A stretch of DNA of 64,000 nucleotides, taken from positions 3,410,001 to 3,474,000 of the forward strand of contig JAQGEQ010000380.1 of the NCBI GenBank assembly GCA_034620365.1. Reading direction: 5' to 3'. Below, piece after piece: positions 1-64,000 of the stretch. This DNA is from Pegea sp. RAD2-039 (lineage: Eukaryota > Chordata > Thaliacea > Salpida > Salpidae). The notes under the pieces are model-generated. The model saw only the letters and a list, made by a program, of their open reading frames with translations, did not search any database and was not told where the DNA came from. Both the position numbers and the translations under genes were made by a program. Positions within the stretch are counted from its first letter, which is position 1. Each line of letters opens with the position of its first letter.

Positions 1-522
1 TATGAATTAGGAGTCAAAGATTCTGAACGAGCCGATAGCGCCCTCCAACGACGAATCGATGACATCGCAACTTCGTTCAACGATATGGTCGACAAACACA
101 TTGAGGTGATGACGTAATTCAAACTGCGACAAGTCACGAGACGATGACGTCATTTTTAGAAAACTGTAGATGAGATGACTTCTTGTGCAAAACAAAAGTG
201 TCCCAGTGTCTTCAAGGTTTGACTCTATGACGTCATAACCAGATAATCGAGTCATTTGAGACTTTTTAGAGAGTTGAAGAGGATTTAAAAAGAGGACTCG
301 AAGAAAAAGGAAGACTCGAAGATGACCTAGTTAGAAATCATGTAATCGAAAAAGTCGGTTCTGAAATCACAAACAAAGTCGGGTAAGTCCCGGAACTGAT
401 AATTAGAAATTTGTTTCTGAATTTCTATTAACAGAACTCTCAATCTTACAATCTCTGCTTTAATTTCAAACAAGTTGACGGACACCCTGCTAGCTGAGTT
501 GTCTCAATGTAATTTGCTGCTG
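1..522 (+). CDS. Unidentified coiled-coil protein, 3' part of the gene not resolved (partial at left edge)
   Basis: Three exons read in one consistent frame: 1-105, 270-382 and 435-522, each flanked by GT/AG borders (acceptors ttttag and aacag, donors gtgatg, gtaagt and gtgagt). The roughly 100 encoded residues are charged and helical, with heptad-like stretches such as DSALQRRIDDIATSFNDM and a Lys/Glu/Leu-rich middle exon, so a coiled coil is likely. The last exon ends in phase 0 after a leucine run, so the gene should continue to the right, but I could not find a convincing next exon in the AT-rich sequence that follows. The start codon lies outside the window. I do not recognise the family. 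The TGACGTCA palindrome lies in both the first intron and its surroundings. Confidence 0.5.
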
Positions 523-2950
523 GTGAGTGATCTACTATTTAGTGATGTGATGTTGATGATTATCAAAGGAAATGAGACGAAAATTGTAAAAACAACTGAA
601 GTTGAATAAAAAGCAAATTTGTGTGTTTAGAAAACAGATGTAAGATGTTGTTATGAGTTTCAAAGCTTGTTTTATACGTAAGAGTAAAAATCATAAAATT
701 ATTACTAAGCGCTAACTATAAGATTTTGTTTATTGAGTTTTGTTTTATGTTTATCCAAAATTTTTACCCAAAGTTCAATTTTAGTCAAATTAAAAGCTTG
801 CTAGGCTTCTATAAACTTCATTTCCTTGTTAAGCCGCATAGTGAAGTTATTGTTTTGGTTGTGACTTCATGTTCATTGAAGGTTTTATTTATTTGATAAA
901 CTGTTATTTAATTTTGTATTTAAAAGAAAATTCTTATGGACTTGTTTTAAAGTTGTAGTTTCTGAAATTATCAAAGATTTATACAGATCGATTCTTAGCT
1001 TGTAAAAATAGCTTAGAAAGGCATTCAAATTTGAAAGTAAAAGATTTAAAACTGGATTTGTTTGATAAAAAACTGAATGAGATAAAAAAGTAGATTAAAT
1101 AAACATAAAAAATTACGAATAAATATCTATCAATTAAAAAGCAGTGAAAAAAGTGCTATGAATAAGTTACTTTTTTCCAGTTTCTTCGTTTTCTACTTTC
1201 AAATTTGTTTATTATAACTTTAGTTTACTATATAGTGCTATTTATAATAAAGTTATAAAAACAATAAATCTATTTATGAAAGCTTTTTCATTCATGGCAA
1301 TATAGAAATAAAACATTTGAAATTTGTAAAATTAAATAGCTTCAAGTGATAATTCTAATAATAACTTTTGTAGAATCTTTTTCAAACTTTCAGTAGACTG
1401 AAAATTTGAAGTTTATAAAAGCTTTTACTTTTTGTAATGAATAATTCAAAAAAATACTTAATGAAAGAATTGGCTTAAAGGAAAGTTTTTATTTTCAAAT
1501 GAAAGTGAAATGCAGTAGTGATGAAACTTTGAAAGAATAGATAGAATTTATTTGAATATTTGTTTTGGGATGTTTCGGATATTAATTTTTATGATAGCTT
1601 TGTATTTTTTTTATTTTGATAGTTCAATAAATAATCTTTAATTATTTTACAGCTTTTTTGATATTTGAAAGTCAAGAAATTGATAGTTTAGAAAATGTAT
1701 AAAAAGAAATTATATATAGTTTATAACTGACTAGTCTAATTTCTTTTTATAAATTAGTTTAAATAACTTCTTTTTTATTTTAGCATAAATTGATTAAAAT
1801 AATTAGAGTAATAAATTTTTGATTAAAACTTACACTGTATTGAACTAAAACTAAATAAGCGGTTCTAGTCTACAATTCATCTAAATCACACTTTATTCAC
1901 TTAAATTGATTATAAGATCACTGTCAACAAGCTAGTGTTATACTCAATTGCGTATTATTCATATTTATGAGTATTTATGAGTGCAATCAAGAAATATTTT
2001 GATTTGAAATATCATATACAAAAAAGTTCACCGAAAATGATTACTTTGAACTTAAAAATTTCTTATCGTAAAATTATTTAAATATTTATTATTTGATTAT
2101 TTAAAAAGTGTTTTTTGTATAAAACTTTTTATTATTTATTTAGTTTAAGTGTTTATTTTCGCAAAAAAAATATTTTTAAAGTCTTACAACAAAAATGATA
2201 CTTATATCACACTTTTTTGCAAATTTTCATTTTAAGGAAAAACTTTCAAGAAAGATCTATAAAAAGCTTTATTTGCAGAATTTAAATTCTTATTCTGTAA
2301 ACCTTGAATTATAGAATCACTGACATCAAAGTTTCTTCAATATTTTAAAATTATTATTCTGTTGTTTTAATAACTTTTGTTTTATCTTAGCCATAAATTA
2401 ACAAAGAAAGTTTGTACAAAAAGATTAATTATATTTGATGATTATATCAAAAGGAAATGTTTATAAGTGTTTATCTTCATCTTTTTAATCTTTTATTTTA
2501 AATTCTGAACTGTTTTATTAGCAGTTTTCAGCCAGTTTTATTTCTCAGGTTGCATTTGCTGTAGTTTGCTTAAAAAACTTAATGATTTTAATCCACTATA
2601 AAAATATTACTTTAAGCTTATTTATGATTTAATTTAAGTATTAAATGACTTATTTGTGTAATTTTTTAAAAGTATTTACCCTCAAACACTTGATCTATTG
2701 ACTTAATATCAATGTGCAATGTATTTGCTTAACTATTAACTAGTTCTTGTGGCCGCTGAGTATTTAGTTTAGGCCACAAATCTAGTCCAGGTTGACATCT
2801 AGAATATTACTTGAAAAATTCTGCTGAAATGTTATTAATAAACATTTTTGCAAACATTTAAATTCCTTCAACGACAAAACTTTTATTACAGTTCTAAAGC
2901 TTATTGACATCAAAAATTTTGTTAGATTTAATAATAAAAATTATTGAATA
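523..2950. other. AT-rich non-coding stretch (intron or intergenic)
   Basis: About 2.4 kb of very AT-rich sequence with no supported exon. It may be a large intron of the gene to the left or the space before the next gene. I see no RNA gene or mobile element. Confidence 0.5.
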
Positions 2951-4212
2951 ATGGGGAATATATATTCAAAACTGTTGGGTTTCGTCTATCATAAGATTGC
3001 TTTTGCTCCAACAAACCGGCCAAGTGAAAATGTCAAAAAGGTAAGAGAGGCAAAACAATAATGAGCTTCAACTACTAGCTCGACTTTCTTTTTTTGCTAT
3101 TACGTTTGTGCGGGGTGTGTAGGTATTTTAACAAACTTCATTCACTCTTGTACAAGTTATAGGCGCGTCTGCTTAAACATCAGTTACATTATCAGTTTTT
3201 CAAGTTTGATTTCTATCTAGTATGTGTTTATTAGTGCTGTAGTCATGTCAAGTCAGCAATCTAGTATTTCTATTCAAAGTAAAACTAAAAAAGTGACAAA
3301 TAAAAAGCCTCGGAAGTTGAACAACGAAAAGGAATCAGTTAAAAATCAGACACAGAAAAAGAACAGAACAAGAAGAAAGAAGAAGTCCACCCCAGAAGCT
3401 GCTGATCAGCAGAATACAAAAGAATCAGCTAATTCCTTAGTTCGTGTTTACAAAAGCTCTGGTTCATTCCCCACCTTACCCAAGCCTGACAAAGATGTAA
3501 ACTTTGGGGTTGTAACTGCTGTTAACCGAGTTGAAGCTCAACTTCAAGACACTAATCTCTTGTTGGTTGAAGTACTTAAAATACTTCGAAATATTTCGGT
3601 TTGTTTTTAACTTTTGTTACCTGGTTATGTATACATCAGAAAGAATAAATGTTTGTCTTTTCAATTGTGAAAGGGTTTTTGTGAAACTCAGCTTTTCTTT
3701 CAGAGATGTCATGACAAGTATAAAAAGAAATTTGTAACTTTTAGTTAACTTATCGAAATCAGATCAATTTGTTGCTGCTAAACGTCATATCCGGAAAACT
3801 TTTTGCAATCAGCAGTATTGCTCAAACTCAAATTTATTCGAAATTTATGTTTGTAAAAAATTTCGAAAAATATTTCCTCAATTTCCAGAATTCGTGTTTT
3901 TGAAATTAACAATCACATCTTTGTAGTCACAACTTCTAGAAGCTTTTAGTCACGTGCTTTTGTTTACAGACGGAACATTTGAGCAGCACCAAACTTCAAA
4001 ATCATTATCGAAGTTTAGATCTTGCTAAAACTCCTGTGGTATCACCAACTCATGTCAATCATAGCATCGAGTCAGAGAGTCTTCTTGATGACGTCACAAC
4101 TACATCAAAGCAAGAAGAAACTCCTGATGTCTTGGCTCGAGCTAGGGCAGAGAGTTTGGCCCGTCGCCAGCGACGTCCTGAAACTCAACAACAAGAAATA
4201 GGTTTGAACTAA
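2951..4212 (+). CDS. Small basic protein with N-myristoylation-type start (unknown family)
   Basis: Proposed three-exon model, all junctions phase 0: 2951-3040 (ATG to gtaaga), 3221-3598 (acceptor ttctatctag, donor gtttgt) and 3970-4212 (acceptor tttacag, stop TAA), giving about 236 residues. The start MGNIYSKLLG has Gly2, Ser6 and Lys7, matching the N-myristoyltransferase consensus, so membrane attachment is inferred. The middle exon encodes a Lys/Arg-rich tract (for example KKNRTRRKKKS) that could be a nuclear localisation or acidic-lipid-binding signal, then a short Leu-rich helix. The last exon is Ser/Thr- and Arg-rich. I do not recognise the family. The link between the first exon and the rest is the weakest part: the second could instead start at the ATG near 3246 as a separate gene. 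Confidence 0.45.
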
Positions 4213-5832
4213 ATCTTTAACGACTTTTTGCAAAGTAGATTTTGTCACGTGACTTAATACAGCGCAAGTTACAAACAAAGATTTTGATCAGCTGATTTAG
4301 TCACGTGACATTTCTTTTAATACCCAACTCATTTAAGCGTCTCCGAGAGAGAAGGGAAAGAAGTCTTGATCGCCTTTTGTGACGTCATCCACGCCTTCAG
4401 CTGTCTATTGAGAGAGCTGAAAGTTGACGATGATCTTTTTTTCATTCAAATCTTTATTTTTCTGACTTTCATTGTAAACTTAAATTAAGTATTGAAACAT
4501 CTAGAAAGTAGAGAGTGATGAAATGAAATTTCAATGAATTTTTCAGGTAAAAAAAAAGAACTTTTCTGAAATTCAATCTTTTTTTGAAGTACTTGAAAGG
4601 AAGTTTTTGTTATTTGAGAATCATCAGCTTCTGATGACGATTATAAATTGACAAAAATAATTTAGTTGAAGCATCAGAATGATTGAAGATATAATTAAAG
4701 CAGTTCAAGAGAATCTCTTCTTCGTTTTATTAGATACTAAGTTACTCGTGGTCTACAGCTGTCAATTGTGATGTCATTTAATCCCAAAAGCTTTATTGTA
4801 AACAAAAGAATCTATTTCTATGGGTTGTTCAGATTTTAAACCACAAAATCTTTTATGAAAAAAACATTTTTATTTGTTTTCTGTTTGCTCTAAAAATTTA
4901 GTGATTGTCTTAAAAGTAAAATTAATTTTCTATTTATATATTAGTCGTAGAATAAGAACTATTGTTGAATTTATTATTGCTAGTTTTAATTTAAAACTTT
5001 CTGGTGGTTCATTTAAACTTGCTTTTCTTCTTTAAAGTATTTCAAATTCAATTAAAGTTTTATCGTTTAGTTTTTTTAGTTTTCTATTTTGATTAAGAAC
5101 TTTGTTTATATATGGAGTTTTTTCATGAGCTCAAAACTTAGATGTCGAATATTTTATAAAAACTTATTTATACAAAGCTTAAGTAATTTTAAGAGAATCT
5201 AAAAACTGTTTATTCTGCAATCTTCACCCAGTACCTGATTGCCCTTTGCTTTCTGTTTATCAGTTTTAGAATACTCTCTTTCTACTCGTTTGTAAATTAA
5301 ACATAAATCTCTGATTTCTAAAGAGTTATTTCACAAAAACAGAATTTGTTGTGAATAAATTCATCAAATTCATTATTTTGATTTTCTTGAGTAAACAACA
5401 GTTTTCATTTTGATTTTTTACAAACATAAGCATAAAAGTTCTTCATTTATTCGTAAATATTTGCCAAGCAGATTTCGTTTTCTTCTCAACTTATTGTTTA
5501 CATATGTAGCAAAAATGTATTTGTTAGAAATCTTTTAGGAGCAAATTAAACTTCTATACCTTCAAGTATAAAAGGTAAAACGCATTTTTCTGAATACGTT
5601 TTTTGTTTCCAAATCTCATAAACCGAAAATAACTTCATTCATTTATTTTTGGCATCAATTAGCTCAGCAACATCCAATTTGATGGGTTTATAGAAGATTT
5701 TTTTGGATGATTTCTTTTTGTGAGAAATTCTTTCATTTAAACAAAAGATTCTTTGACATATGATCAACTTCTTTCGTAATTAAACTAGATTAAACGCGAT
5801 CGTGACGCCACTGAGCACGTGAACACTATTGT
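4213..5832. other. AT-rich non-coding stretch
   Basis: About 1.6 kb with no supported exon. The first 250 bases carry a perfect TGACGTCA and several CACGTGA motifs, and could be the 3' flank of the gene to the left. A short Arg-rich open stretch near 4336-4383 has a possible acceptor, but its phase does not fit the previous exon. Confidence 0.4.
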
Positions 5833-7626
5833 ATGTTTGCAGTGATCAGTGCGGACGTAGATCAATCTCCGGAAGATATGATGGAAGAAGATGAGAAGAA
5901 GACGGATATTGATGAAGTGATTCAAAGTTCAAAGATGAAAGGGAAGAAAAATGAGGAGATGAAATCAAGTGTCAAGAGTCCTCCGAGTTTGAAAGGATCA
6001 TCAGAGAAGTTGAATACGGAAGAGGTTGTCAATAAAGATCAAGAAGATGATCAGGTAGAAAAAAACAAGATTAAAGAGAATCAGGTGGAAGAAAAGGTCA
6101 TAAAAGATGAGAAGAGTCGGGAAGAAGTTGAAAAGATTCTGGAAATCTCAAGTAAGACTTCAGAGCAGTCAGGAAAGGAGTCAATAATAGAAGAATCTGA
6201 AGAAGACACAAAAGTTGAAGATATTTTTGATGAAGACACAAAAGATGAAGATGTTTTTGATGAAGACACAAAAGTTAAAGATGTTTCTGATGAAGACACA
6301 AAAGATAAAGATGTTTCTGATGAAGACACAAAAGTTAAAGATGTTTCTGATGAAGACACAAAAGATGGAGATGTCTCAGAGCTGGAAACAAAAATGGATG
6401 AAGAAATTAAAGAGGAATCGGAACCCAAGGATGAAGACATTGCAAAAAAAGCTCCAAACAAGAAAGAAGATAAAAAGGATAACTATGATGATATCTCCGC
6501 TAAATCCGGGTCCTCAGAGCCAAGTCGAAATGATGGTCAGAAGGATTTAACAACTTCTAAACATCCAATTAAATTTGATAATTCAACAGATGACGTTCTG
6601 GAATCCATCAATTTGGAACCAACCAAGAAACTTCAGCACATTACAAAGGTTTACTCAGTCTTTTCATTGCCTCATCTCATCTTTTCATCTAACAGGGAAG
6701 AGTTAAAGGTCCAAATCGCACCTCTAAGAGGAGCAGCAGGAGAAAGACTCCTCCTGTGGAAGCGGAGATTGACAATTTCTTCACCAAAGAGTAAAAAATC
6801 AAGTTTCAGGGCTCCAAAATATAATTTTCAAAAACTTGCAGTGTTTCTACAACCGATTTCAGTTTAGTGCCTACTCCCGAAGAGGAAGAGCCTCCTGAGG
6901 AGGAGGAAGTTAAAAGTGAGAAGTTTACTGAGTAACAAGGTGACTGGGTTGTGACGTCACAACTTCTAGAACCAAAGCGAGTTGTCGGAGGAGTTGCTAT
7001 GATAGGGATGCCTATGATCACTCCTCAGATGTTGTCTTTAAAGAAGAAACCCTCTAAAGTACCCCAAGAAGAGATGAAGAGTCCTACAAGAGATCCACAA
7101 CCACCAAAGAAGAGCGAGAAGATCCACCGTCCGCCACCTGGTGGCGTAGCAATGCCGGGAGGAATCTTTGCAGAGATGAAGATGAAGAGTTTGAAGGTGC
7201 TCCTCAAAAAGCCCTCCAGAAGCTGATTTGAAATTTGAAACTCCGCAGAAAGCATCAGGAAGTCTGAAGAAGTCTTCATCAGGAGCAGAAAATGATTCCG
7301 TTTTCGACCAATCAGATCCAAGTAAGAACTTTCACTTTACGCTTCACTAACATTAACTTTTTATTATTTGAAGCTTCAGCTACACCGGAGCCAACTTTAC
7401 CAGGTGAGTTGAGCGTGTTCAGTCAAGCATGAATAATACATAGTTAATCTCAATTGCGCCTCTAGTGAATAAAACCAACTAAACTTTCAATCTTCCAGTT
7501 TCACCAAAACCCCCCTCAAATCGGCCCACTGTCGCGCAGAAGCCGCGAAGATCCGTGAAACTGGGTAAGCACCTGTGCGAGTTACATTTGCAAATATTCA
7601 TGATTTTTACTGCAGCAAGCAAATAA
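5833..7626 (+). CDS. Acidic repeat protein with a capping-protein-interaction (CPI) type motif
   Basis: Model: exons 5833-6648, 6696-6790, 6842-6915, 6970-7196, 7249-7321, 7374-7403, 7499-7564 and 7616-7626, all phases consistent, introns mostly about 50 bp, ending AGC AAA TAA. The first exon is Glu/Asp/Lys-rich with five tandem 10-residue repeats around DEDTK. The exon 1-2 junction creates LQHITKGRVK followed by a basic, Pro-containing stretch. This fits LxHxTxxRxK of the CPI motif by which CARMIL, CD2AP/CIN85, CapZIP and WASHC2/FAM21 bind actin capping protein. Later exons encode two GGVAM-type motifs (VVGGVAMIG and PPGGVAMPG) and a Pro/Arg-rich tail. An F-actin barbed-end regulatory role is inferred. 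Which CPI family it belongs to is unclear: the acidic DIFDED/DVFDED units recall WASHC2 LFa motifs only loosely. The start may be internal, since an acceptor-like gtttgcag overlaps it at 5834-5841. Confidence 0.6.
6206..6375 (+). repeat. 30-bp in-frame tandem repeat coding for DEDTK units
   Basis: Five to six copies of a 30-bp unit lie inside the first CPI-protein exon, encoding 10-residue steps centred on DEDTK followed by KD or ED and a DVF/DVS end. The first copies have Phe where the later ones have Ser. The unit length is a multiple of three, so copy-number change would keep the reading frame. Confidence 0.85.
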
Positions 7627-7627
7627 A
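7622..7627 (+). terminator. AATAAA polyadenylation signal overlapping the stop of the CPI-motif gene
   Basis: AATAAA overlaps the proposed TAA stop (7624-7626). The last exon would be only four codons long before the stop. The coincidence of acceptor, stop and polyA hexamer supports the gene end, although AATAAA is common in AT-rich DNA. Confidence 0.4.
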
Positions 7628-10600
7628 ATGTTGGAATAGATGAAGGTCCTTATTTTGGAACTGATGACGTCATCAGTAAATGATCTTACCATCAAAGTTA
7701 TTCAGAAGTGTTTCAACTTTTTGATAAACTTTTTAAACATATGAGTCACTTTTGCTGTTTAGATGAGGAATCAGAGATGACTTCTTCAATCATAATCTTA
7801 TCAACTCCAGTTTCTACTGTTTCAATTTTTTGTTTTCTTTCTTTCAACTTTAAACAACGATTATTCTATCACGTGATGTAATCAGATCTTTTATTTGCAT
7901 ACTGTACCATCAAACGTATAACTTTTTTGTAGCTCCTTGCTGTCTCGTAGTGGCCTTAACTCCAAAGTTCACTTTTCAAACTCTTTGTGCTCTGATCTCA
8001 TGTTTCATCACATCTTCCTAACATATATGACAGTTGCTTTTTTTTGTTGTTCATCAATAGATAAAATCTTCATAAGAGGTCTTACTGCTCTCTAAGTCAG
8101 TTGTGAAAGTTGTTGTTAATTGAAGATTAGATTTAAAGGAAGAAATTTATGTTGAAGAAGCTTTAAGCTGATCAACTTCTGAAGACCCCTGTGAGCCAAG
8201 AAAGATGATTTTTATGGTGGACCAAGTTGCAATGATTAGATAATATCAAAATAGAAAAGTTCAATTAAAAAAGTGGTTTGTTGTAAATACGATTTAATAA
8301 AAAGTTTAAGAATTATTCATCTTTCAAAAAAGCTTAGAAAATGTTCAAAACCAAAGGATGAATGATCATTTGATCTAAGAACAACTCCCTATAACCTACG
8401 ACAAGTCTAATATTTTCAAACTGTATATGTGCTTGTAGATCAACTCATATTTTCTACAAAATATCTGAAGCTTAGTATATACTGTAGAAGAGCTGCTACA
8501 AAAACAACTTATAAGTTTAAGCTGATAATTCTATTTTTATCGTAAAAATTTGTAAACTGTTTTTCCTTATAAGGTTTAAAAGTTCCGTTTAACACAAATT
8601 TGATAAAGTTGATTCAATTGTTCATCCAAAGTCCCAAAATCTTTAGATGAGTTTAGATGAGTCTAAAGAAGGATCTCAACTTAATAAAATCTACTCATGT
8701 TAATTGCTTCCTCTTGAAAAAGAGTTTGCTAAAAAGTAATATTAAAATGTTAAATTTAATTTCAGTCAAAAACATTTTCAACTTCCTAGAAAATAAGGTA
8801 AGTTTCAGTTTTATCAAAATATTCATTTTTCATAAACAGCAGTTTGTAGCAGCTCAGTAAGCAGTGAGGTCTTTGTGTGTAGAGTGAGTTCAAATCATGC
8901 TGGGAATAGAAAAGTTCATAAAAATTTAGTTAGACTGATCGTAAAAGCTCTTCGACACCCAATAGGAAACCAAGATAGACTAACAAACATTACACCTGGT
9001 GGTTGAAGGTGCTAACAAGAAACATTTACTAAATCATTCAAACATATTTAAAGAAAATGTTTAACAGAAAGTAATTTACTCTAATCAAGCACAATCACTA
9101 AAAGATAACATTTTCAACTTTTTTATGAATTCTTTACTTGTATCAGATTAATATAAACTAAAACGACTTACTTCTTTATTTTTCTAAAGTGCATTCCTTA
9201 AATGTGCCACTATTCTAGAATAAGGCGAGTCCTAAACACCTCACATGCCCTGTATTCAGGACATATACTTCACCACCAAACCTGTCGTAAATTGGCTTAG
9301 TTTTGTCGATCAAGCAGTTTTACGAGTCAATCAACAAATTAACTTTTTTTTTAATTTCTTAGCTTTGAAAAAGATTCAATTCAGTCTTGCTGTCATAAAA
9401 ATTGAAGCTTTTATGGCACTGATAAATGAAAATATATTTTGCTCAAATCTTTTATCTAAAAGCCTGAAAATTATTTTAGTTGTAAATAGCTTATAAGCTT
9501 TAATGTCTTAGGGTTTCAAACCTCATAGCAACTATCAATTATCTAGTATCTTAAACTTATTCTATTTTTACTGTATTTAAAATACTTATTGATAACTAAA
9601 CAGTTGAAACATACAGATAAGTATAACAAGTAACCGCACACTTAGTTGTTCTTTTATAAACTGAAAGCAAGGCACAGTTTAATTAGCAATTATTTTCTAT
9701 TGTATAAATAGTCAGTATTAGTAACAGGTTAAGACACAGTTGCTATAAACTGTAAACGTTTAGACAAATGTAACTTTGTTTAATAAGTTTAGAAATTAAC
9801 TGTTGTATTAGAAACTAAAAAAATGTTTCTGTATCTTAATGAAATCTTTATATGTTTCATCAGCAAATTAAAGAAGCTTCCTGGTAAAATTCATAGCTTT
9901 TAACCAGTCATTGAGTTTTAAAACTTTTAAATGTTTTGTTTCAAAAGTTGTTTTAAAAATAGAATTTTATAATATTTCTATCTTTGTCAGTGAGCTAGTA
10001 AAACCGCTTTGAGCCTTGTATTAATGGCCTGACTATATAACAAATATAAAGTGCAATGTTTGCATAAAACTCAATTAAATTTGAACTATCAAAGTATCAC
10101 AACTAATTAAATAAGGATACAAGTAATGTTGGTGAAAGATGGAATATTTTCTTAATTAAGAAAATGTACCAACATCAGCTAATATAAACTTTACCAAAAT
10201 TGCTTTAAATGGAATCAGAAGAAATCTTTTATTTAAATGATACAAGGTTAGAATAAAAACTTTATTTTTTCAGAAGTGACTATACTTTAAAGTATCTTTC
10301 AATTTTATTAGGTTATCAATTTCAAAGTATAAGACAAACCTATAAAGTTCAATTAGTCAAATATTTGTGTAAGTCAGTCGACATCAAATATTTATCTTCA
10401 GTTTATTTTGAATGTTAACACCAGAAAAATTGTATTAAAGATTTATAACCTTGAAAATTGATGGAATAAGTTATATATATCAATCATAAATTCATTACTT
10501 CATCTGTGAATTCTTCAAGTTTCTAAGTTTAATCTTTATGTTAATAAAATTATATAATTGAATAATTATCTAAATATTTATTACAATTTATATAATATAT

Positions 10601-13004: not shown

Positions 13005-14507
13005 CAGTTGTGGAGAACTAACTTTCTATTTACAATTTTGAAAGTTTTAATTTTGAAATCACATTTTCAACTTAATCAATTTCAGATGAAATTTTAATAA
13101 AACTTTATAATATTTTCACAATCGAAACTGTTAGATTATATCACATCGAATCATCTGCGATAACGTCTATTTTACAACAATCTATTACTGGATATTCTTT
13201 AACAATGAAAATTGTTCAATTGTTTTATTCAATTTATTGAATTGAATTAAGTAGTTTGTTTTTTTGATAACTTTCTATTTTGGGAAATACAATTTGAGCT
13301 TTTATCGTGACGATACTTAATGAAAGCTTAGAAAATAAACCAGACCTTATAAGGCTTCTACTGAAGATGGTTTCATATATTTATTTACGGAATAAACCAT
13401 TAATTTCAAAAAGATAAAGTGATTTTTTTAAAGATGATGCAACTCTTTACAAAATTATAAATAAATATATAAGATGTTATCAATTATTCAGACATTTAAA
13501 GCTTAAAGTGTGATTAAATCAAATTTCCCATGGGATACCTACCTAAGAGATTAAACAAATTGATGTTATTTCTTTAGAGGTGACATCTAAACTTCCAAAT
13601 ACAGCTACGTTTTCATTAAGTGATTATCCTTGCAATAATTTAATAAGATAAACGCTTTTATGTCAGCTCACTTTACTGATGAAATCTCATAATATACTTC
13701 ACAAGTGACTTCTTTGCACTTTGTTGCAACATTCAAATCTCATTCATCTACTAAAACTATTTTTGATAATTTCTATTTAAATAATATCGTTTTAAATATC
13801 TATTTTATAAATAAATCTGTTTTAGATAAATATTTGAATCTAATTTAGCTTTTATACAAAAGACAGGTTATTTTCAGAAACTTTTCAACTTTATTCCTTA
13901 TGGCCTTTAAGTAAAAGATTTGTTAAAGTTATTCTTCGAAATGAAACTTTTCAAAACCATCTTGTAAATAAACTTTTGATAAATCTGTTGGACAAACAGC
14001 CGGAAAGAAAACTATTTGATCTTAACCGCTTATATTTCAATTTTCTTTTTGTAGTGGTAAGTACATGGCTACTAACCCATGACAGGTTTTCCTCATGGAG
14101 TTAAATAAGTTAGTCGAGCAAAAAGAAAGGTGTTAAAGAGGGAAGAAAAACAAACAAATAAAAGCGTCTGAATAGTTGATGGTAATGATGTGAAAGGGAT
14201 GAGAAGATTTGGTCGAAGAACATACTGAAGTGGATTTAGTACAAAAATAATTCTTGATTAAAAGGGAATAAAATAAAATGAAAAAAAAATAAAGAATGGA
14301 AAGGGAAAAAGGATTTGCAATAAAAATAAGCAAAGAAGTGATGACGTCACCAAGCTAGACGCGCTCATCTAATTGGCTGCTTGTGTAAATGGTGAAAGAT
14401 GATTAATATCGCGCGTCACGTCGTCTTGGAAACCATCATCACTTGCAAAACTGGTCACTGGTGGCGCAGCAACCACAAAAAAGAAGAGAAGTCGATGATG
14501 ACGTCAT
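13005..14507. other. Convergent GST / talin 3' flank
   Basis: About 1.5 kb between two convergent genes, holding the GST 3' UTR on the left and presumably the talin 3' UTR on the right. It is AT-rich until about 14330, where sequence becomes GC-richer with TGACGTCA at 14341 and 14498. I see no other gene. Confidence 0.5.
13096..13101 (+). terminator. AATAAA polyadenylation signal of the GST gene
   Basis: AATAAA lies 92 bases after the GST stop codon, a normal distance for a short 3' UTR. Confidence 0.5.
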
Positions 14508-15175
14508 CTAATCGGAGTCGCTGTCGTCTTTATGACGCAACTTGCGAATTTGTGCGAGTTTGTTTCGCGCGTCTGCGAGTTCCTTCTCCTTCCGTAGGAT
14601 CTCTTCCTGAGCCATCATCTCTTGCGCGATTCCGCCAACAAGTCGCGAGCTGATGACGATGTTCTCTTCCTCTTCTTCCTTCGACACTTGAGCCGCTTTT
14701 ACCAGATCCTCTGACGCGTGACGAACCGCATTGCCAGCGATCTGTGACGTCATATACGCGTAAGGAATACACATGTAAGGAAGTGATGACATCATACCTG
14801 GAGGCGTTTCATGTTCTCGCTGTTTGGGTCAGCTTTCACCTTACAAGCGACCAGCAATTGGGCCGTGGACGAAGCCACTTGTTTGGCAGCGGACACCAAC
14901 TTCTCTTCGCTCGCTTCGCCCTGGACCGCTTGATTGGCCGTTTCACACAAGGTGCCCGTTGCTCTGGCAACCATCTGAGCTGCACTGATCAGTCCCTGGG
15001 ACCACTGTCCATCATCGTAATGTAAGGACACAGAGCTGCCCACTTTTCCCTGAAGGACAAGTTCTTTCTGGGCCGCAGATGCAGCTTTAACTAAGGCAGT
15101 GGTCGCGGTCGCGATTGATTTCGCGGCTTCCAGAATTTGCTCCTCGAAGTTCAGACTATCATCGGCCTGCTGACG
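14508..15175 (-). other. TLN: Talin C-terminal actin-binding (I/LWEQ) and dimerisation exons
   Basis: Two last exons, about 15172-14802 and about 14743-14508. They hold the I/LWEQ module core (NFEEQILEAAKSIATATTAL, WSQGLISAAQMVARATGTLC, SAKQVASSTAQLLVACKV) and the start of the dimerisation helix (LRKEKELADARNKLAQIRK). The tail after IRK is HKDDSDSD, unlike the longer Phe/Leu-containing end of vertebrate talin. Both 3' splice acceptors lie in or directly after a TGACGTCA palindrome. Confidence 0.85.
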
Positions 15176-18100
15176 TCATAAGCACACGTCATCATCACGT
15201 GCTTGTGACGTCACGTGGCTAACTTACTTTCGGTTTCTTTCGAGGTTGGAGTTGGGACAATTTTTTGGCAGCGGCTTCGATCATCGCGGCCGCGTTAAAG
15301 AGTTCCTGCTCCGCGATTACATTTGGATCTTTCGGATCAACCCAATCAGCTCCTACGTGATCAGTGACGTCAGTGATGACGTCATCACACCAGCACACGC
15401 ACCTTTCATGCCTTCAGCACATCGAACAAGGTTGCTGACAGAGGTGGCCACTCCTTTGGACAAGGGTAGCAGCTGCATCTTCGAATCTGGACTATTTGGT
15501 TGGACACTGATCTTGTGGACGTTGCTGATCAGATCGAGGTAGGACTGGGCGACTCCTTGTCCAAATTTCAGGACGTTTTCTTTTTGGATTGAATCGTCGC
15601 AACTTGCCGCTGCAGCCTGATGAGGATTTCAGATTGAAATGAAGATGAGGATGAAGATCACGTGACTTACTCGGCAAATATGCATCATATCAAAAAGTGC
15701 CCTTCGCCCCATATTAGCACAAGTCAACATATCTTCCTGTCTACAAGACTTTCCAGCTGCTACTGCTTTTGCTGTTGCCGTAGTGATGGGTTTTGTGATA
15801 TGGATGAGTTCTTCAGGAGTCGCGCGCCTTTCTTCGCCATCAGCAGATTGTAAGATCTAAAGAAGAAGATCAGAGTGATGTGAGTGGCCACTAGAGGGCG
15901 GTCTCACTTTGATTTCCTGTTTCACTGAATTGATGGTTTGTTCGAGAGCTCGTTGACCTTTAGCTGCTTCATCTTCTACGGACTTCACCGTCTTCAACAG
16001 TGACGTCACATTCGACACCATCGCCTGTCAATGACGTCATCAGCAATGACACCACAACTTGCAATTACTGACCTTAGCAGAAGCACGCAAATGGAACATG
16101 GCGTGGTCCTGGGACGCTTTACCAGTGGCATCTTTGGTCGCGTTGATAAGGTCACCAAGGGCAGACGCGACGTCGCGAACCGCGTTAATGAGAATCACTT
16201 GAGTGTCCGGGTCATCTGCTCCTAGACTAGTTGCTCCTCTTTTAACTGTATTTGCTAATTGGTTGATGGTCTTGGACGCGGACTGGGCCGCAATTGCCAA
16301 TTTCTCCTGTCCACCCCCAGCGCCTGCAGCTAATTGCTTCGTGTCTTCGACCAGCGCTTTAGCGGTCGACAAAATCATCTCCCTATCAACGAGATGTGAG
16401 TATGGGAAGTAGTGACCTCTAGTGGTGACCTGTGTTCCGTGAAAGTCTTTTCATCGCGATCGCTATTAAGCGCTCCCGAATTGACGAACATCAAAGTTGT
16501 GTCCAGTTCTCCGATGATATTCTGGATGTCGCTATACGCGTTGATGCACGCTTGAGTGCCTCGACCTCCTTGTTGAAGTGATGACATCACAAACGACACC
16601 TGAGGTCGTCAACTTCCACTTGTCATGCTGATCGCGTCACTGATGACGTCACTAACCTTTTCGTTGACGTTGCGACTTGCCGCTTTCATCGCTTTTTTCG
16701 CATCCACGTCGCGCGCGTTGCTCTGGACAACCGCCGAGCTCTGAATGAAGCTTTTACAAGCTTCTCCGAGTCCTTGGATACTCTTCTTGATGTGTCCTCC
16801 AACCTAGTAGACGCGAGATGAGATGATTTCAGATCGCGTCGATGACGTCACACCTCATCAGAGTCGGCAAGTGCTACGATGGTTGAACCATCAACGACCA
16901 TCGCGTTGTATTCATCAGTACACTTCTTGGCAAGCACTTGAAGCTCTCCAGGGCGATCAGAAACGATGTTTGCTGCTGACGTCATATCGCTCGTGCACTT
17001 GACGATCGCCTTGCAGCTTTTCATGATTCGCGATTGAAAGTCTGCAAACGACTCGTCTCCCTCTAGTGTTTGATGTGTGTCCATTATCTAGTAACGAGCG
17101 CGTGATGTTGGGGCGTGTGCAGTGAAGCAGAACAAACCTTGATCGCGTTCGAGATCGAATCGACCATTCCCGACACTAGAGCTTCAGGAGCTTCTTGTAC
17201 AGACTTCAAAAGATCATCAATCGCTTCTTTGGAAGCGACAGAAGCTTCTAAGATAGCTTCGTGCGTGTTGACAGCCTGGAGGATGAAGATCAGATGATGA
17301 TGAGGAGCTAGAATGTACCTTAGGATTTCCTCCACCCTCTTTAGAAGTGTACATCAATTGAAGAGCAGATTCCGCGAGAGTTTTCGAATAATCCAAAATA
17401 TCCATTTGTCGTTGATGATTTGATGATTGAGATGCTGATCCAATAGTAGCTTGTGCTAATGGCTCAAAATAACTTGCTAGTTGTAGTACCTACGTCATGA
17501 TGACGTCGTTAAGTAGATCGTGATGATATTATCAAGTAAGTTAGTTACCTGTCGACCAAGTTGCCCAGAATCTTGTTTTGCAGATTCAGTAATTGGATCA
17601 ATAAGAGCTCCGATTTGATTAACTGTATCAACAACCTGAAAACGAACTAACTAAGCACCTAACAGCCATCTTATCAACCTAGTAACTATCTCAATCATCT
17701 AGCAACCATCTTAACCACCTAGCAATCATGCCAACCACCTAGTAACTATCTCAACCAACTAGCAACCATCTCAACTACCCAGCAACCATCTCAATCAAAT
17801 AGCAACCATGCCAACCACCTAGCAACCATCTCAATCACCTAGCAACCATGCCAACCACCTAGCAACCATGCCAACCACCTAGTAACTATCTCAATCACCT
17901 AGCAACCATCTCAATAAAATAGCAACTATCTCAACCACCCAGCAACCATGCCAACCACCTAGTAACCATGCCAACCACCTAACAACCATCTTAACCACCT
18001 AGCAACCATCCCAACCACCTAACAACCATCCCAACCACCTAGCAACCATCCCAACCACCTAGTAACCTTACTTTTGATTGGAATCCTTGTAATGTGTTAT

Positions 18101-46800: not shown

Positions 46801-48511
46801 GTGATAAGTGTGGATATCGAAGCGCGACATGCCGCGGTACATTGACCTGAAAAGTTTCAGCTGATAAGAAATCGAGATGAAAGTAACGCGATAACACGAT
46901 CCGTTTCCATGGTAACTTATCTTTAGTAACTTTCTCTTCACTTGACATCTGTTTGCAATGACATAAATGACGTCATGGGGCATCGAGACCCTCGTCTGCT
47001 GCCTGTGTTTATACTAATTAGGCCGCGCGCCTAAATTGTAGCTGATTAGTTTGATCGATCCGTATTTGGTCACGTGACCATCTGTTTGTCGCGAGTGACC
47101 GTGACATCGCGTAATGACGGTATTGGTTGTCATGACAACTGCATCTTTCAGTCGCTACTGTCCGATGGATATGAACGACGGAGTGAGACGTAAGAATGCA
47201 ACTCGTGAATCGACGAATACGCTGAAGGCGTGGCTCCAGGACCACAAGAAGAATCCGTATCCGACAAAGGGAGAGAAGATCATGCTTGCGATCATCACCA
47301 AGATGACGTTGACTCAAGTTAGCAAGAGGACGCAAAGACTTGCGCTGTTTGTGACGTTTGACGCGTACAGGTATCCACGTGGTTTGCAAACGCGCGAAGA
47401 AGATTGAAGAAGGAAAATAAGATGACGTGGATCCCTAAGAATCGTACAAGTGCTGATTCATCGTCGGGATCTAATAACAACACCGATGGAAAAGTCACCG
47501 ATGGAGAGATCGACGAAGAATTAGTTTCATCTTCGGCAAAAGGTTACTCTATTTCCGGCCAAATATTTTTTTTCCTCCGATATCACTAATCAGCCTTGAT
47601 GATGTCATTGATGACGTATTTGATTGACAGATGGAAGCGATGTGGAAGAAGTTGAAACTGACCAGCGGACTACATCTGAATGTAGTCCAGCAACCACTGC
47701 AACTATCTCACAAGCGTCCTACAAGCCTGTTAACTACATGGACACTTACTACCGATCCGCCCCAATCCCATCCTATGCCCCAAATATCTATAATCGCGAC
47801 GCATGGACTCCAAGTAGCGAGAAACAACCAATCAGTGGTTACTATAACAACGATCAAAGCAGTTTTGCGTATCTAATCGAAAGTAAAAACGATGAAAAAC
47901 CTTTCCAGCCTCCAATCGTACCCAGTATGACGTCATCCACACCATCAGCTGGTATGACGTCATCAGAATGGCCAGGAATGCCCCTAAGCACTGACTTTTA
48001 TGGTTCCTCGTATGGTTCAAAACATCCAGAAATGTTGTCCAAAGTGCCCATGACGTCATATCCGCTAGAAGCTGATCGAAGCGTGTACGCTCATTTACCT
48101 GTCGAAGGGTCTCACCCTGATTACTACCCGCCTTACAACTCCACTTCGTCTAATTACCAACCGATGACGTCACAGTACTACGAGAAGCCTACATCATCGG
48201 TATATGGAGCAAGCTCAATGATTGTCGAAGACACAAAAATGACAGATTTAAATTATTTCAACGAGCCTACTTATTTCAACCATCAAGCCACTTTCACTGA
48301 CGTCACAAACTCGGTAGTGACGTCAGAAGCATCGACAACTAGCGGAAACCTTCTACAGATGTCGTCACCAGGTAGACGCCTCGTGCCTACGTCATCAAGC
48401 TTCAACTTAAGTAAGCTCCCTTCTGATTGGTCGATTGCTGTGCGTGACTCTATTTTCAATGTGACGTCATCACTCGCTCGAAAAGTTCCCCGTCATCGCG
48501 TGGGATTTTGA
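43885..48511 (+). CDS. IRX: Iroquois-class TALE homeobox transcription factor
   Basis: Five exons with matching phases: 43885-44208, 45076-45215, 47152-47317, 47371-47542 and 47631-48511, about 560 residues. It is a DNA-binding patterning factor of the nucleus. The homeodomain spans exons 3-4: [18 protein letters not shown], the TALE loop [25 protein letters not shown], then [20 protein letters not shown]. Ala before the NARRR of helix 3 (position 50) is typical of Irx. An acidic stretch follows ([13 protein letters not shown], then DVEEVETDQ), as in other Irx proteins. The N-terminal exons are Pro/Tyr/Asn-rich; the C-terminus is Ser/Thr/Tyr-rich and contains repeated MTS written by TGACGTCA. 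A clear Iro box is not visible; [12 protein letters not shown] near the end is only loosely similar. Introns 1 (867 bp) and 2 (1936 bp) are large and may hold enhancers. The start could be either of two adjacent ATGs. Confidence 0.95.
44611..44802 (-). CDS. Possible tail-anchored microprotein nested in Irx intron 1 (hypothetical)
   Basis: A 63-codon ORF on the strand opposite Irx, inside its first intron. It starts ATGGCGGAG after a purine-rich context (taaag), typical of a translated animal start, runs through a Ser-rich polar segment ([14 protein letters not shown]) and ends with one hydrophobic helix, [16 protein letters not shown], just before the stop. This is the layout of a tail-anchored membrane protein. 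A gtagac donor-like site overlaps the last codons, so the ORF could also be the first exon of a longer gene. I do not recognise a family. No clear polyA signal was seen near the stop. The GC-richer flank with CRE and CACGTG motifs at 44870-45000 could be its promoter. Confidence 0.4.
   Translation of the reverse strand: MAEPEENNVINKSIFKKTFVMNRSKHHSESELSPPSILGSFEGKSVGVFVALIWILIARLVDF
47185..47424 (+). other. IRX: TALE homeodomain of the Irx gene, split by a 53-bp intron
   Basis: The homeodomain is interrupted at 47318-47370 between TLTQ and VSTWF, inside the recognition helix region. The donor gttagc and acceptor cgtacag restore the perfectly conserved [13 protein letters not shown] only when this exact intron is removed, which validates the boundary. 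Confidence 0.95.
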
Positions 48512-53154: not shown

Positions 53155-56100
53155 CTACAAGATCTCAAGTAGTTTGGTCGGGACCAGGCCACTCCTGTTC
53201 TGGTCCGTAACGAGGGACCAACCTGCCTTGTCACTGGGCCGGATATCGTAGAGTAACTGGCCAAAATGGACGGACAATTCAGCTTCATCTTGGGCAGTGT
53301 AACCGAATAAAGCCTTTCCGGTCCGCAAGATACCACCTACTGGTCGCTGGGTCACAACTGGTGACGTCCGTGGTCGCTGCGCAAATTGAGTCATCTTAAA
53401 TCTAGCGGTTCATCTAAAAGATGACTCACCGAAGGATCAGATCTTTGAGAAGAAGATCTTTGAGCTTCAGAAAGATATTTGATCTTTCTCATTTTCACTG
53501 ATGCCACATTGACACGTGACTTCCAGGATTGCGCATCTTTTGCAGATCTCATCATGAGAGAAGGTCTTGGAGGAGCTTTTGGAGTCCTCTGATGATTGTT
53601 ATTGTTTTGATTTCGTTGTGATTCCGAAGCAACTCTTCTCACAATCTCCTTTGTCTTCGAAGGGATGAAAGCGCGCGATGATTGTGTCTTGGATGTCAAA
53701 ATCCGATCAGGAAGATCAGTGATGCAAGAATCAAAGTCTGCAAACTGATCTTCATCACTTGAAGACTTTCCGTTGTGCTCTAAAGATCATAAAAGATCAG
53801 ATCCAGAAGATCTGATTGTAGCGTGACGTCATTACGGCGCGACGTTCACAGCTTCTGCTTGTTAGTTGCAAAGTTTTTCATAAAAATCAAAATTTTGTTA
53901 AAAAGTCAAAAAAAATTTTATTTCGAGAAAAAAAAGAGAAAAAAACAACAAAAAGAATCAATGACGTCATCAGAGAAAGAAAAAAATGACGTCATAGGCA
54001 GTGAAATTGATAAATAATGTCACAATCACGGAAAGCAACGAGTAGCGCGCACAGGAGACTCACCATCTTCTTGGTAATCTTCATCGATATGTGGATGTCG
54101 TGACGTCATCACCTCTCGCTTCTCGTGAGAGCGAAAAGCTTTGGATCGCTGAAATCGCGGTTGAAAGGCTTCTTCGTCACTAGGTGACAGCTGAGGTTGC
54201 GAGGTGGAGGTGTAATCAAAGTTTCGGAAATCTTCCAAACGATCCCAATCACGCCGCGCGCGTCTTAATTTCGTTCTGTGACAAATTAGCGATGATGACG
54301 TCACATGACAAATTAGCGATGATGACATCACATGACAAATTAGTGATGATGATGTCACGTGACAAATTAAAAGTGATGACGTCACGTGACAAATTAGTGA
54401 TGATGACGTCACGTGACAAAAGTAGCAAAGCAGCGGTGATGACGTCACGTGACAAATTAGCGGTGATGACGTCACGTAACAAAAGTGGCAAAGCAGCGGT
54501 GATGACGTCACGTAACAAAAGTGGCAAAGCAGCGGTGATGACGTCACGTAACAAAAGTGGCAAAGCAGCGGTGATGACGTCACGTAACAAAAGTGGCAAA
54601 GCAGCGGTGATGACGTCACGTGACAAATTAAAAGTGATGACGTCACGTGGCAAAAGTAGCAAAGCAGCGGTGATGACGTCACGTGACAAATTAAAAGTGA
54701 TGACGTCACGTGGCAAAAGTAGCAAAGCAGCGGTGATGACGTCACGTGACAAATTAAAAGTGATGACGCCACGTGACAAGCTAGCGATGATGACGTCATG
54801 CATCAAGTTTAGCAAAGCAGCGATGATGGCATTTAAGCAATTGTCAAGGGAAGCACCTTTGTGAAGGTAATCGAACAAATCCGGAAATAGACGAAGGAAA
54901 GACATTTTGGCTTTTTACTGTTTCGTCATCACTTTCGAAAATCATCGACGAATTTTCGATGAATATTTCAACAACTGTATTTGAGAATTTAATTTCCATA
55001 ATCGACTGAACGCTTTCCTGAAAGTTTTCAAATCTATTAGTATCATCAAGCTACATCTTCTAAGTAACTCACTTCTTTATCGCGTAAAAGTGTTGGCCCG
55101 AAACAGACTCCTAAATTCATTAAATTCATCTTATTCGAGTCCCTGTGTTGAACCACTTTTGACAGATGATTACATAATTTGCATAAAGCTTTTCGATTTG
55201 CTTCAGGCAATTTGCTAACCAGCGACATAATTCTGAAGAGAATCTTTTAGTTAGTTGCTATGGTAACTAGTTGGTTGCTATGGTAACCAGTTGGCTGCTA
55301 TGGTAACTCACGTTTCTAGTCGCATCTTCGAATCGCTCATTTTTGCAGCCTGAATGAACTTTTGATGAAGAGCAAACGTACAAACTGGTTCTGACATGTT
55401 TCGGAAGCAGTATTTGAGAGAACTCGTCAAAGTGTTGAAGTCAATAGATGATTCATCAGATAAATCAACACTAAAACACAAATGGAGGATGAAAACGCGA
55501 TTACGCGATCATCAACAAGCACCTTTGTGACGTCACAGGGTTGAGTGAAGTTGAGATGAGTTGATCAACTCTTGTAAGGACTCCATTGATCCGATAGATT
55601 CCTTCAGTGTTGACTCCTCGACGCTCAATCTCAGAGATAATCTTTGTGATCAGATCCATTCCCTTCTCATCTAAATTGAATATTCCCGCAGAATCACGTT
55701 TGGAATCCTAAAGATGAAGATCAGCAGGAATCGATCGAAGATTCGCGCTGACTTTGACGTCACGAGCATCGACAGGTTCCTTTCCATCCATCACCATCAT
55801 CCATTTCTTCTTATCTTCATCTGAGAGCGCTTGACAAGTGAAGTTGCGAACTGATCCAGCTCCGATGTCCTGGAAGCTAAAAGATTATTTGGATGTTGAT
55901 GATAATAAAGATAAAGACCTCGACTTCGATATCAAAACAAAAACGGCGATCTATGGAGTCACTGAGACGTCCGGTGCACGAGATGACGATACAAGAATCC
56001 ATCACGACCGCAGTCACTCCGCCACTGCTCCCCATGCTCTTGTTGGATGAGGCGAGGACTGAAGATGAGGAGACGAAGGGAGAAGCCATCTGGAAGAGCT

Positions 56101-61145: not shown

Positions 61146-61397
61146 ATGCTTATATATCGAAGGCTTTACATAAACAGATACCTTCTTTTTAAAGATGAAA
61201 TTAGTTTCAAATGTTTCTACTTTAGCCCTGAAGTTACTTTTCATTTTGCAGATCATGAAAATAAATTGGCTTACCACGCAAGGGAAATTATTGAAACAAA
61301 GTACACTTCTGAAGATGATATAATGAGAATATATGGATGGCAGTTTTCAAAATCAAACAAATATGTTGCTATGTGGTTGTATATAAAACTGCAGTAA
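61146..61397 (+). CDS. Unassigned 83-codon ORF
   Basis: Open from ATG to TAA. The second half has a balanced, protein-like composition (FADHENKLAYHAREIIETKY, SEDDIMRIYGW) that is unusual for AT-rich non-coding DNA here. I do not recognise the family and see no flanking splice signals that extend it convincingly. It could be an exon, a fragment of a mobile element or chance. Confidence 0.2.
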   Translation: MLIYRRLYINRYLLFKDEISFKCFYFSPEVTFHFADHENKLAYHAREIIETKYTSEDDIMRIYGWQFSKSNKYVAMWLYIKLQ

Positions 61398-62639
61398 TGA
61401 TTTGGTTATTAAACAATTAATATTATGCAAACAAGTAGTTAAAAAGATTTATGTGAAAAAGATTTTAGAATTTAGATCTAAAAATTTAAAATATTCAATT
61501 TTTTCGGTCTGTCTCAGGCTCATTGGAATTAATCTAGATATTAATTGAATTATTATTATTATCTTACTAAGAAAAGCTGTAACTCGTTTAGAGAACCTTA
61601 GCAGACTTACTTGAATCGGGTTGAAAAACAACAAAAGGTACATCTACATTCATACGATTTCAAACAAGCTACAAAGATATATTAAATAAAATTCTTTGAG
61701 AATGATATATCTAAGAATGTTTACAAATTTCAAGTTGATAAACTTTTAGTGATTTGTTTTAATGTATGATTAATGTCGCTGTACGATTTCGATTATAACA
61801 AAAACGATAAATACACTAACGATACGTGTTATCGACAACACAGCCTATTACCGAATGACAACAGTCTAAATGAGAATGACAGTTAACACATTTACATAAG
61901 CAGCAAGATGCTTTACTGTTATACCACACTGTTTAACAGCCTCCCAATATTTAACACAAATTTTGAAATTTAAGGGTCTAATTTCATCCTCAATGACAAT
62001 CAGCAGCTACATATTTCTAACAGTACAAAAGTCGTACAACTACAATAAATATGACAAAAAACAATGATACAAATACTATTCTAAAATCTCAGTTACTTTT
62101 ATGCAAAGTTTGAAATTTTTGCTATTGACAATCAAGTTAACGTCACGTGCAATCGTTGCAAAAGCTACTTAAGATGGTTGCAAGTTAATCAATTGTAGAA
62201 TTAACCTTTTTAAATTCATTTTATCCAAAATGAAATTCACAATTATAAATCGAAGCAGATAGGTAATCTTCTGGGCATCTGCTATCAAACTGGGATCTAC
62301 TCCAAGAGTTCGACTCAAAAACTCAACAAAGTTTTACTTTTGTTAATAGATCTTCTTACTCCATCTTAAGTTGTGAAAAGATCGGAAACTACAAACGCAT
62401 CCATAGGATAGAACAATAACTCCACTAACGATATGAAAGAATCTGTTTCACCAATACGATGATAACGAAGCTACTAATAAGCCGCTGGCATATTTCCAAA
62501 GATCCTTGAAATCAATTGCCTGTTTGGATGGAAAAAGTTTTGTGGTAAAATACTCTGCTATATAACTTGTTATATGATTGAAGCATGAAAGATGCAATTG
62601 ATAATGTTAACCATGAATGCCAGATTAGTAAATGATTAT

Positions 62640-63241
62640 CTGTCATCGAATCGAGGGACGTTTTTTTCTTCTCAACAAATTTTCAATTTCTGGAATAAGA
62701 TCATAAAATCTTTTCAAACAATTAGCTCATGACTCAACTATTGAATCGTCGGCATCAACAATTTGAACTTGTGATGATTCATTAATTTTTTCGATTCATT
62801 TGAGATTACTACAGTTGATACTTTTGAAATATCGAAAGTCTTGGCATTAAGTTTCTTGGTGCAAAATGTCACGAGATCAAAATGATTTCCTTCGCGTCAC
62901 TTTCCAACGATTCCTTAAAGTCGTAGATTAGAACCAACATTAGAGGGCAACCTCCAGACTTTACTGCAATATTACTTTGCCTTAGAAATATTTTTCTGAA
63001 ATTCATGAAATAGATCTGTTGTGCCACAAAAATAACTCAACATAAAAAACACCTCAACTATCTTCAACATGACTTCATAATTATTCCTTATCTCTAAAGT
63101 ATCACCGAGTAGTAAATAAATTTTTAACGTTAAAAAATAGTCAGCTTTATCATTAGATAAATCTTCATTGCGTCGCGCGACTTTATCATTAATTAGTTTA
63201 AGCTTTAGGTTAAGCTTTATTGCCATATCATTTTTCTGCAA
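62640..63241 (-). pseudogene. Possible decayed coding sequence, origin unknown
   Basis: On the minus strand an 89-codon ORF (63241-62972; KIYLLLGDTLEIRNNYEVML, EVFFMLSYFCGTTDLFHEFQ) is followed by further protein-like stretches in shifting frames (VTFCTKKLNAKTFDISK, NESKKLMNHHKFKLLMP) with in-frame stops down to about 62640. The pattern suggests a degraded gene or transposon. I cannot assign a family. Confidence 0.22.
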
Positions 63242-64000
63242 ATATGCCTTACTTAAAAATTTTATCGTTGGATTAAAGTTTTATATTTCAGGGTGGCAAA
63301 TAAACAGTTTCTAGATATGTCTTTAATACCTATTTCAAACTTTAAAGCATCGTCATAAAAACATAAATTTGAATTAAGAAATGATGATTTTAAAGTATTT
63401 ACAAGTAACAATGGCATTTAAGGATTGTATTATGTTTAACTTTGATTATAAACTGAAATAAATCTTGCTAGAAAAAGATGCATCTAGTGTTCAAATACTT
63501 CACGAAAGTTGACTTATATTTACCATATCTTCAACTAACTTTTTGATCAGGTTTCTTACTACTGAAGTCGTTTCAAAAATGTTCGGAAAAGAGATCATTT
63601 AAAAAAATTCAGAACATTTGCCTAGCTTCATTAAGAAATTATATAAGAAATAATAAGTTGTCAGTTGAGCTAAAGTTATAGCGAAAAGGAATTTAGTATA
63701 ACTGAACTGAAATACAAACTTGAAAAAACAACAAAAATATACCTTGGCAGTTTTCATTCTTACTTTAAAAGTATATTCACAAAAAACAGTTTTGAAAAGC
63801 ACTCATATCAACCAAACAGCTGCAACAGCTACTTGTAGATAAAAAAAACTAAATTTCATTTTCGAACATTCTATATAAACAATTTTTTCCGAAGTAAAAC
63901 GGTCAACTTTACTCTAAAATTTGCATTCTTATAGTTGAAAAAAGTATTTGAAAAAGTCTTTATCAGCCTAAAAAATAGTTTTTAAATCTTAGATCTTTGA

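Follow-up and report, generated by a model that had tools for sequence, protein, structure and literature searches.

The stretch analysed here (hereafter the window) comprises 64,000 bases of the genome of the salp Pegea sp. RAD2-039 (contig JAQGEQ010000380.1; C6:3410001-3474000, where C-numbers are our contig labels and L-numbers denote sampled stretches of the genome). It bears a predicted talin gene, the last exon of an Irx-like gene and, in these and other places, numerous copies of an 8-bp palindrome, TGACGTCA, whose sequence is identical to that of the cAMP response element (CRE), the site of CREB/ATF proteins of the bZIP family. Exact copies of this word number 66 in the window, whereas 100 dinucleotide shuffles averaged 0.75 copies and never exceeded 3; the word ranks first of all 256 palindromic 8-mers there (the next, AAATATTT, occurs 55 times). 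Fourteen of the 66 copies lie inside one minisatellite, and the other 52 are dispersed.

The word in genes and across the genome

All gene models used in this study are predictions from sequence. Pieces of the talin model match Pfam talin domains and solved talin-1. The gene and its word-bearing features are the following:

14511..26075, minus strand: predicted talin gene, 40 exons and 39 introns, with 24 copies of TGACGTCA inside
14342..14506, no strand: two copies (14342, 14499) just beyond the predicted talin stop codon
14742..14797, minus strand: talin intron with the end TGACGTCA-CAG, copy 14745
15170..15227, minus strand: talin intron of 58 bp, copies at 15171 and 15206, the latter abutting the 3' splice site
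15353..15390, minus strand: predicted talin intron of 38 bp, copies at 15365 and 15377
16001..16008, minus strand: exonic talin copy, Val-Thr-Ser, residues identical in solved talin-1
16977..16984, minus strand: exonic talin copy, Met-Thr-Ser
18462..18514, minus strand: talin intron with the end TGACGTCA-CAG, copy 18465
20320..20327, minus strand: exonic talin copy, Asp-Val
22054..22104, minus strand: talin intron of 51 bp, copies at 22067 and 22082

Most talin introns (28 of 39) are only 38-60 bp long, and it is in these that the word is densest. The 28 short introns (1,440 bp) hold 13 copies, i.e. about 9 per kb and approximately 640 times the expectation from base composition, whereas the exons (7,017 bp) hold three (28 times the expectation); the difference in density between short introns and exons is about 20-fold (P 3.5e-8). 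Longer or uncertain introns (3,108 bp) account for eight copies (200 times the expectation), of which the one at 24530 may be coding. At least one copy was found in 10 of the 28 short introns, three of them having two. The position of the word inside the introns varies; apart from the two introns with the end TGACGTCA-CAG, a third short intron has the end TGACGTCAG. It should be added that another talin intron contains a minisatellite of 20/40/60-bp units (CACCTAGCAACCATC; 17652-18067), with kin arrays of approximately 65-82% identity on many other contigs. A search for a second genomic copy of the talin region for allele comparison yielded none, all 121 matches listed being to this unrelated minisatellite. 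The GC content of the talin exons (0.48) and short introns (0.43) contrasts with about 0.24 in the adjoining AT-rich sequence (26001-30000).

Over the whole genome (105,744,746 bases in 387 contigs) TGACGTCA was counted 27,792 times and the reversed word ACTGCAGT, which served as a crude control, 969 times, corresponding to a 28.7-fold excess and to a density of 263 copies per Mb. An order-2 Markov model was used as a second control: in 205 kb of sequence, with three tandem arrays masked, the word occurs 73 times, about 50 times the expectation, and the other 23 palindromes of the same letters occur 0-7 times each. Part of this sample (11.4 kb, L001-L008) was chosen for holding the word and contributes 8 of the 73 copies; both L001-L008 and L032 were fetched because they bear the word and are therefore biased. 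The initial annotation had placed the word far above chance in the window, and these counts, including the one against palindromes of equal composition, confirm that the excess is real and genome-wide, and that it is stronger than the window alone could reveal. The window itself is a rich part of the genome, since it has 10.3 copies per 10 kb as compared with a genome mean of 2.6 and with 1.0 (13 copies) in thirteen 10-kb stretches picked by position (eight existing ones of 20 places, then five of five).

The word is distributed very unevenly between genes. Two other genes (on L017 and L021) lack it in all of their 17 modelled introns, which include longer ones of up to 237 bp, in comparison with the 10 of 28 short introns of talin that contain it (P 0.007). 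The L017 gene, which we take to be NOP58-like, has 11 exons; the L021 gene, presumably lipase-like, has a single exonic copy. A G-alpha exon has no copy. In C1a, a gene on C1 selected on account of its word content, five copies are exonic and a further one is situated in a short intron. Within this small gene set some genes are thus rich in TGACGTCA and others lack it altogether. The clustering with genes that had been described for the window is consequently valid for GC-rich parts of some genes and not for genes as such, as the 10-kb stretches L010 and L017 are gene-bearing and word-free.

In coding sequence the window also contains the following feature:

47624..48508, plus strand: terminal exon of the Irx-like gene; seven copies of TGACGTCA in frame (47928, 47955, 48051, 48165, 48298, 48318, 48462)

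The homeodomain end of this exon matches Homeobox_KN weakly (E 0.0003, below the curated cut-off); the name Irx follows the initial label and is putative. In talin and the Irx-like exon, eight of nine Met/Val/Leu-Thr-Ser triplets are written xTG-ACG-TCA, whereas codon use predicts about 5% or less. A wider coding set, partly chosen for word density (talin, the Irx-like exon, C1a, L010, L017, L021 and three open frames of L032), gave 13 of 17 such triplets as the word and 7 of 16 Asp-Val pairs in its second permitted frame. The unit in coding sequence is the DNA word and not the peptide, and peptide-level selection for Met-Thr-Ser was rejected because the triplets are mostly spelled as TGACGTCA. 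The Val-Thr-Ser residues at 16001 are identical in solved talin-1, and codon choice alone can therefore produce the word; in the Irx tail it seems to be the amino acids that are adapted to it. A pressure acting on DNA reaches into coding regions and seems to influence the proteins, a point to be considered in the interpretation of conserved motifs, codon use and disordered regions.

Strictness, spacing and remaining copies

Enrichment ends almost entirely at the exact word. All 24 one-mismatch words pooled stand at 1.34 times the control genome-wide: 64,917 words lie within one mismatch of TGACGTCA, hence 37,125 near misses, as compared with 27,699 near misses of the reversed word. When sorted in the 205 kb into 12 single-mismatch classes, each taken with its reverse complement, 11 were at 1.0-2.8 times the order-2 expectation and one at 5.1 times, the latter resting on 4 copies, so that the near matches reported to surround the copies turned out to be barely enriched. 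The variant TGATGTCA occurs 21 times there (2.1 times the expectation). The half sites TGAC and GTCA are enriched only where they adjoin without a gap (73 occurrences, as compared with 0-8 for gaps of 1-8), the 7-mers of AP-1 are not enriched (17 as compared with 15 reversed), and TGACGTGG (2), TGACGCAA (6), TTGCGCAA (0) and TTACGTAA (2) have few copies, the expectation having been computed for TTACGTAA alone. Per excess word the near-miss excess amounts to 0.35, while insertion followed by free neutral decay predicts about 1.09, and a balance of mutation with a force on the exact word predicts approximately zero; with the reversed word as a crude control, the data are nearer to the balance than to free decay. 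The strict 8-bp unit, with near misses at only 1.34 times and AP-1 at background, thus has the look of a word that some continuing force maintains, and not that of decaying debris of a mobile element.

Adjacent to the 73 copies, A or G is preferred before the word and T or C after it, the preference fading past about 3 bp; extended CREB/ATF sites have similar flanks. A second palindrome, TCACGTGA, is also in excess (4,614 as compared with 237 reversed genome-wide, 19-fold), mostly independently of the first; of its 21 local copies, 2 lie no more than 8 bp from TGACGTCA. Classical binders of the two words are CREB/ATF and USF- or TFE-like factors, respectively.

Pairs of TGACGTCA copies 12-38 bp apart number 5,212 genome-wide, where even scatter would give about 7.3 per spacing and 197 in total. 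Spacings of 20-21 bp account for 882 pairs versus 378 at 25-26 bp; tandem arrays contribute to both figures, and one 25-bp array on C14 supplies at least nine pairs of the latter. Among the first 55 pairs listed, ten are exactly 20 bp apart (P 0.0009 for any spacing reaching ten). At most, the preference for 20-21 bp hints that two dimers might sit on the same side of the helix. Further tandem arrays with the word were found on C14, C3 and C1. Local duplication supplies some copies, but in most pairs listed the inner sequence is unique.

The remaining copies in the window are distributed as follows (no strand assigned):

145..7672: six dispersed copies (145, 228, 4089, 4380, 6952, 7665)
38290..38406: isolated pair in AT-rich DNA (38290, 38399), the second overlapping TCACGTGA (38403)
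42741..46975: dispersed copies (42741, 44917, 44998, 46733, 46968)
53824..54108: dispersed copies (53824, 53962, 53987, 54101)
54278..54795: minisatellite of 27/36/63-bp units with 14 copies (54296-54791)
55528..55762: two dispersed copies (55528, 55755)

The pair at 38290 and 38399 corresponds to the isolated island which had been noted near 38289. The dense stretch at 54296-54791 is largely a minisatellite, because 14 of the 66 copies sit in one tandem array of 27/36/63-bp units. This region (54184-54864) has three open frames of 220-258 residues, distributed over both strands, probably as a by-product of the repeat, and the minisatellite had no match in a phage collection. For the gene initially labelled GRAF, one reading frame was tried and gave no Pfam match. 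A 30-bp tandem repeat in an open frame (6196-6374) encodes acidic DEDTKDKDVSD-like units. Talin, CREB and Jun mark the genome as that of an animal, and its telomere repeat is TTAGGG, which differs from the usual insect or nematode repeat. A search with COX1 gave no match. The ACAGT microsatellite described from Trichoplax (PMC2871265) was absent from the window and from the thirteen stretches picked by position, which speaks weakly against that animal.

Candidate readers and competing explanations

The exact adjacency of the two half sites is indicative of a dimer bound to DNA. The genome yielded 12 bZIP_1 stretches, one of which, a CREB-type bZIP on C14, matches solved CREB1 (E 9.2e-20). Jun is encoded too; a strict CRE reader nevertheless fits better than Jun/Fos, because AP-1 sites are not enriched.

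With probabilities that we consider about evenly balanced, TGACGTCA would be a binding word for a CREB/ATF-type bZIP dimer in and near gene bodies, kept there by weak selection. CREB or a close relative would read it; as binding inside introns and exons may open chromatin or aid transcription, gains of the word would carry a slight advantage and losses a slight disadvantage at thousands of places, close to equilibrium with mutation. Taken as the logarithm of enrichment, scaled selection would amount to about 3 as a mean and to about 6 in the short introns of talin. This reading builds on the strict enrichment, on the crowding of the word in the short introns of talin as opposed to those of other genes, on its occurrence in coding frames as DNA, on the CREB gene and on the independent excess of TCACGTGA. 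If selection is the cause, the number of identical gene-body sites serving a single factor family would be unusually high in this genome. The early suggestion of a regulatory or chromatin word receives partial support from the enrichment of the full 8-bp CRE only, from the A/G and T/C flanks, from the pairs at 20-21 bp and from the presence of a CREB gene. As for a mutation-bias hotspot, a plain one is disfavoured by the abrupt end of the enrichment at a single mismatch and by the contrast of about 20-fold which exons and short introns display within one and the same gene.

Several points weigh against weak selection for binding. The spacings of pairs have no 10-bp periodicity, and Jun and other bZIP genes are present beside CREB. 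In-frame coding copies seem to alter residues, a cost that regulatory selection must outweigh. The slight near-miss excess is also at variance with strong selection building sites by point mutation, which should deplete near misses. Finally, CREB elsewhere also uses half sites and TGATGTCA, according to PMC1796609 and PMC2774331, yet TGATGTCA is at only 2.1 times here.

The strongest rival to weak selection for binding is a bias of repair or gene conversion that favours the word over its variants without benefit to the gene, similar to that discussed for the cyanobacterial highly iterated palindrome HIP1 (GCGATCGC), with a bound dimer or methylation of the central CpG perhaps guiding it; we regard it as unlikely, though deserving serious consideration. 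The sharp limit at one mismatch suits such a bias, as do the entry of the word into introns, exons and isolated places alike, where it follows the freedom to change, and the Irx-tail residues that seem to follow it. Enzymes for methylation are encoded as well: 11 C5-methyltransferase stretches were found, one of which, partly read, is DNMT1-like. DNMT1-type enzymes act on CpG at large, and the encoded methyltransferases are candidate readers at most. Seven of the stretches lie in single open frames of 832-873 residues (three at about 180 bits, four at about 75 bits), although the modelled genes here have many introns; they are possibly retrocopies or mobile-element genes and are situated at:

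C57:819728-821071, C57:825001-826344 (L033), C249:1740707, C32 (three) and C52:9209: single-frame C5 methyltransferases

A methylation-guided repair ratchet has been proposed for HIP1 (PMC4390886). The very uneven distribution among genes is unlike the prediction of a general repair bias, and the isolated copies speak against it too. GC content is 0.43 beside the copies and falls to 0.32 at 3 kb; however, 12 isolated copies (of 70 usable) had 0.34 within 25 bp, versus 0.31 at 35 near misses and 0.32 at 12 other palindromes on the same kind of background. The link of the word to GC is therefore regional, the isolated copies being little above controls, and conversion hotspots signalled by a local GC peak were not evident beyond controls at these 12 copies.

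A more speculative proposal, which we consider rather doubtful, is that of a self-favouring CREB-family word which, on meeting a variant allele, always wins in germline repair or conversion, fills all free sequence and rewrites proteins or, in a softer form, flags gene bodies in the germline as active or as self. The free sequence would be tiny introns and disordered protein tails, and proteins would be pushed towards Met-Thr-Ser and Asp-Val without serving the host gene.

It is improbable that a mobile element or minisatellite growth spread copies that are now passive. The window minisatellite with its 14 copies, the arrays on C14, C3 and C1 and the 5,212 close pairs are in agreement with such spread, but flank sharing among the 73 copies does not extend past about 3 bp, inner sequences are unique in most pairs listed, the near-miss excess of 0.35 is well below the 1.09 of free neutral decay, and exonic copies stand in frame. 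An origin from a mobile element, as target or product, which the initial annotation had also considered, is disfavoured by the lack of shared flanks and of a cloud of decayed near matches.

That the word acts at the RNA level is hardly probable either, whether by assisting the splicing of very short introns (e.g. from a place beside the 3' splice site) or by the pairing of two copies with each other. The 10 word-bearing short talin introns, the three with two copies and the ends TGACGTCA-CAG and TGACGTCAG would fit it, yet 18 of the 28 short talin introns and all 17 introns of the two other genes lack the word, copies are also exonic and isolated, intron positions vary, and strict palindromy suits a DNA-bound dimer better.

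Least probable is a meiotic recombination hotspot signal with the GC-rich gene islands as its footprint: the GC gradient from 0.43 to 0.32 would accord with it, but the twelve isolated copies are little above controls, conversion is expected to lose and not to gain hotspot alleles, and in fission yeast, where an ATF/CREB dimer on the CRE-like site M26 makes a hotspot (PMC9775316, PMC2677671), a full CRE in ade6 was neither bound nor a hotspot (PMC9775316).

Comparison with known systems

Intronic signals across many gene bodies are known from Caenorhabditis elegans, where periodic A/T clusters license germline genes; the signal here is a discrete palindrome and not an A/T periodicity. Compared with the CRE as generally known, the sequence is identical and a CREB bZIP near solved CREB1 is encoded, but the density (263 per Mb, about 9 per kb in talin short introns) and the placement within introns and coding frames set this genome apart. 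Vertebrate CREs cluster just upstream of start sites, while sea squirt, fly and worm have no such bias (PMC1796609). A cross-species motif screen had TGACGTCA among conserved upstream words with enrichments of 2.4 and 4.2 among those tabulated, far below those observed here (PMC551538). A literature search over titles and the beginnings of abstracts, with subscription papers mostly outside it, returned no report of TGACGTCA as over-represented genome-wide in an animal. The M26/CRE-like hotspots of Schizosaccharomyces pombe likewise have a CRE-like word inside a gene, bound there by an ATF/CREB dimer (PMC9775316), whereas the 12 isolated copies in the salp have no local GC peak beyond controls.

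A further likeness is to HIP1 of cyanobacteria, which is also one 8-bp palindrome occurring far above chance genome-wide, genes included. According to PMC4390886, such palindromes reach 1000-2000 per million bases, each is tied to a methyltransferase, and the cause is debated between function and repair bias. A concentration of one-letter deviations at the outer positions, as would be expected of such palindromes, was not observed here, where the outer positions stand at 1.2-5.1 times (the 5.1 on 4 copies) and the inner ones at 1.0-2.8 times. Further differences are that the host is an animal, that the word equals a transcription-factor site, that it is very uneven among genes and that the methyltransferases encoded here are no more than candidate readers of it. 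Highly iterated palindromes being known from cyanobacteria, an animal case in which the word is a transcription-factor site makes their cause testable, as weak selection versus repair bias.

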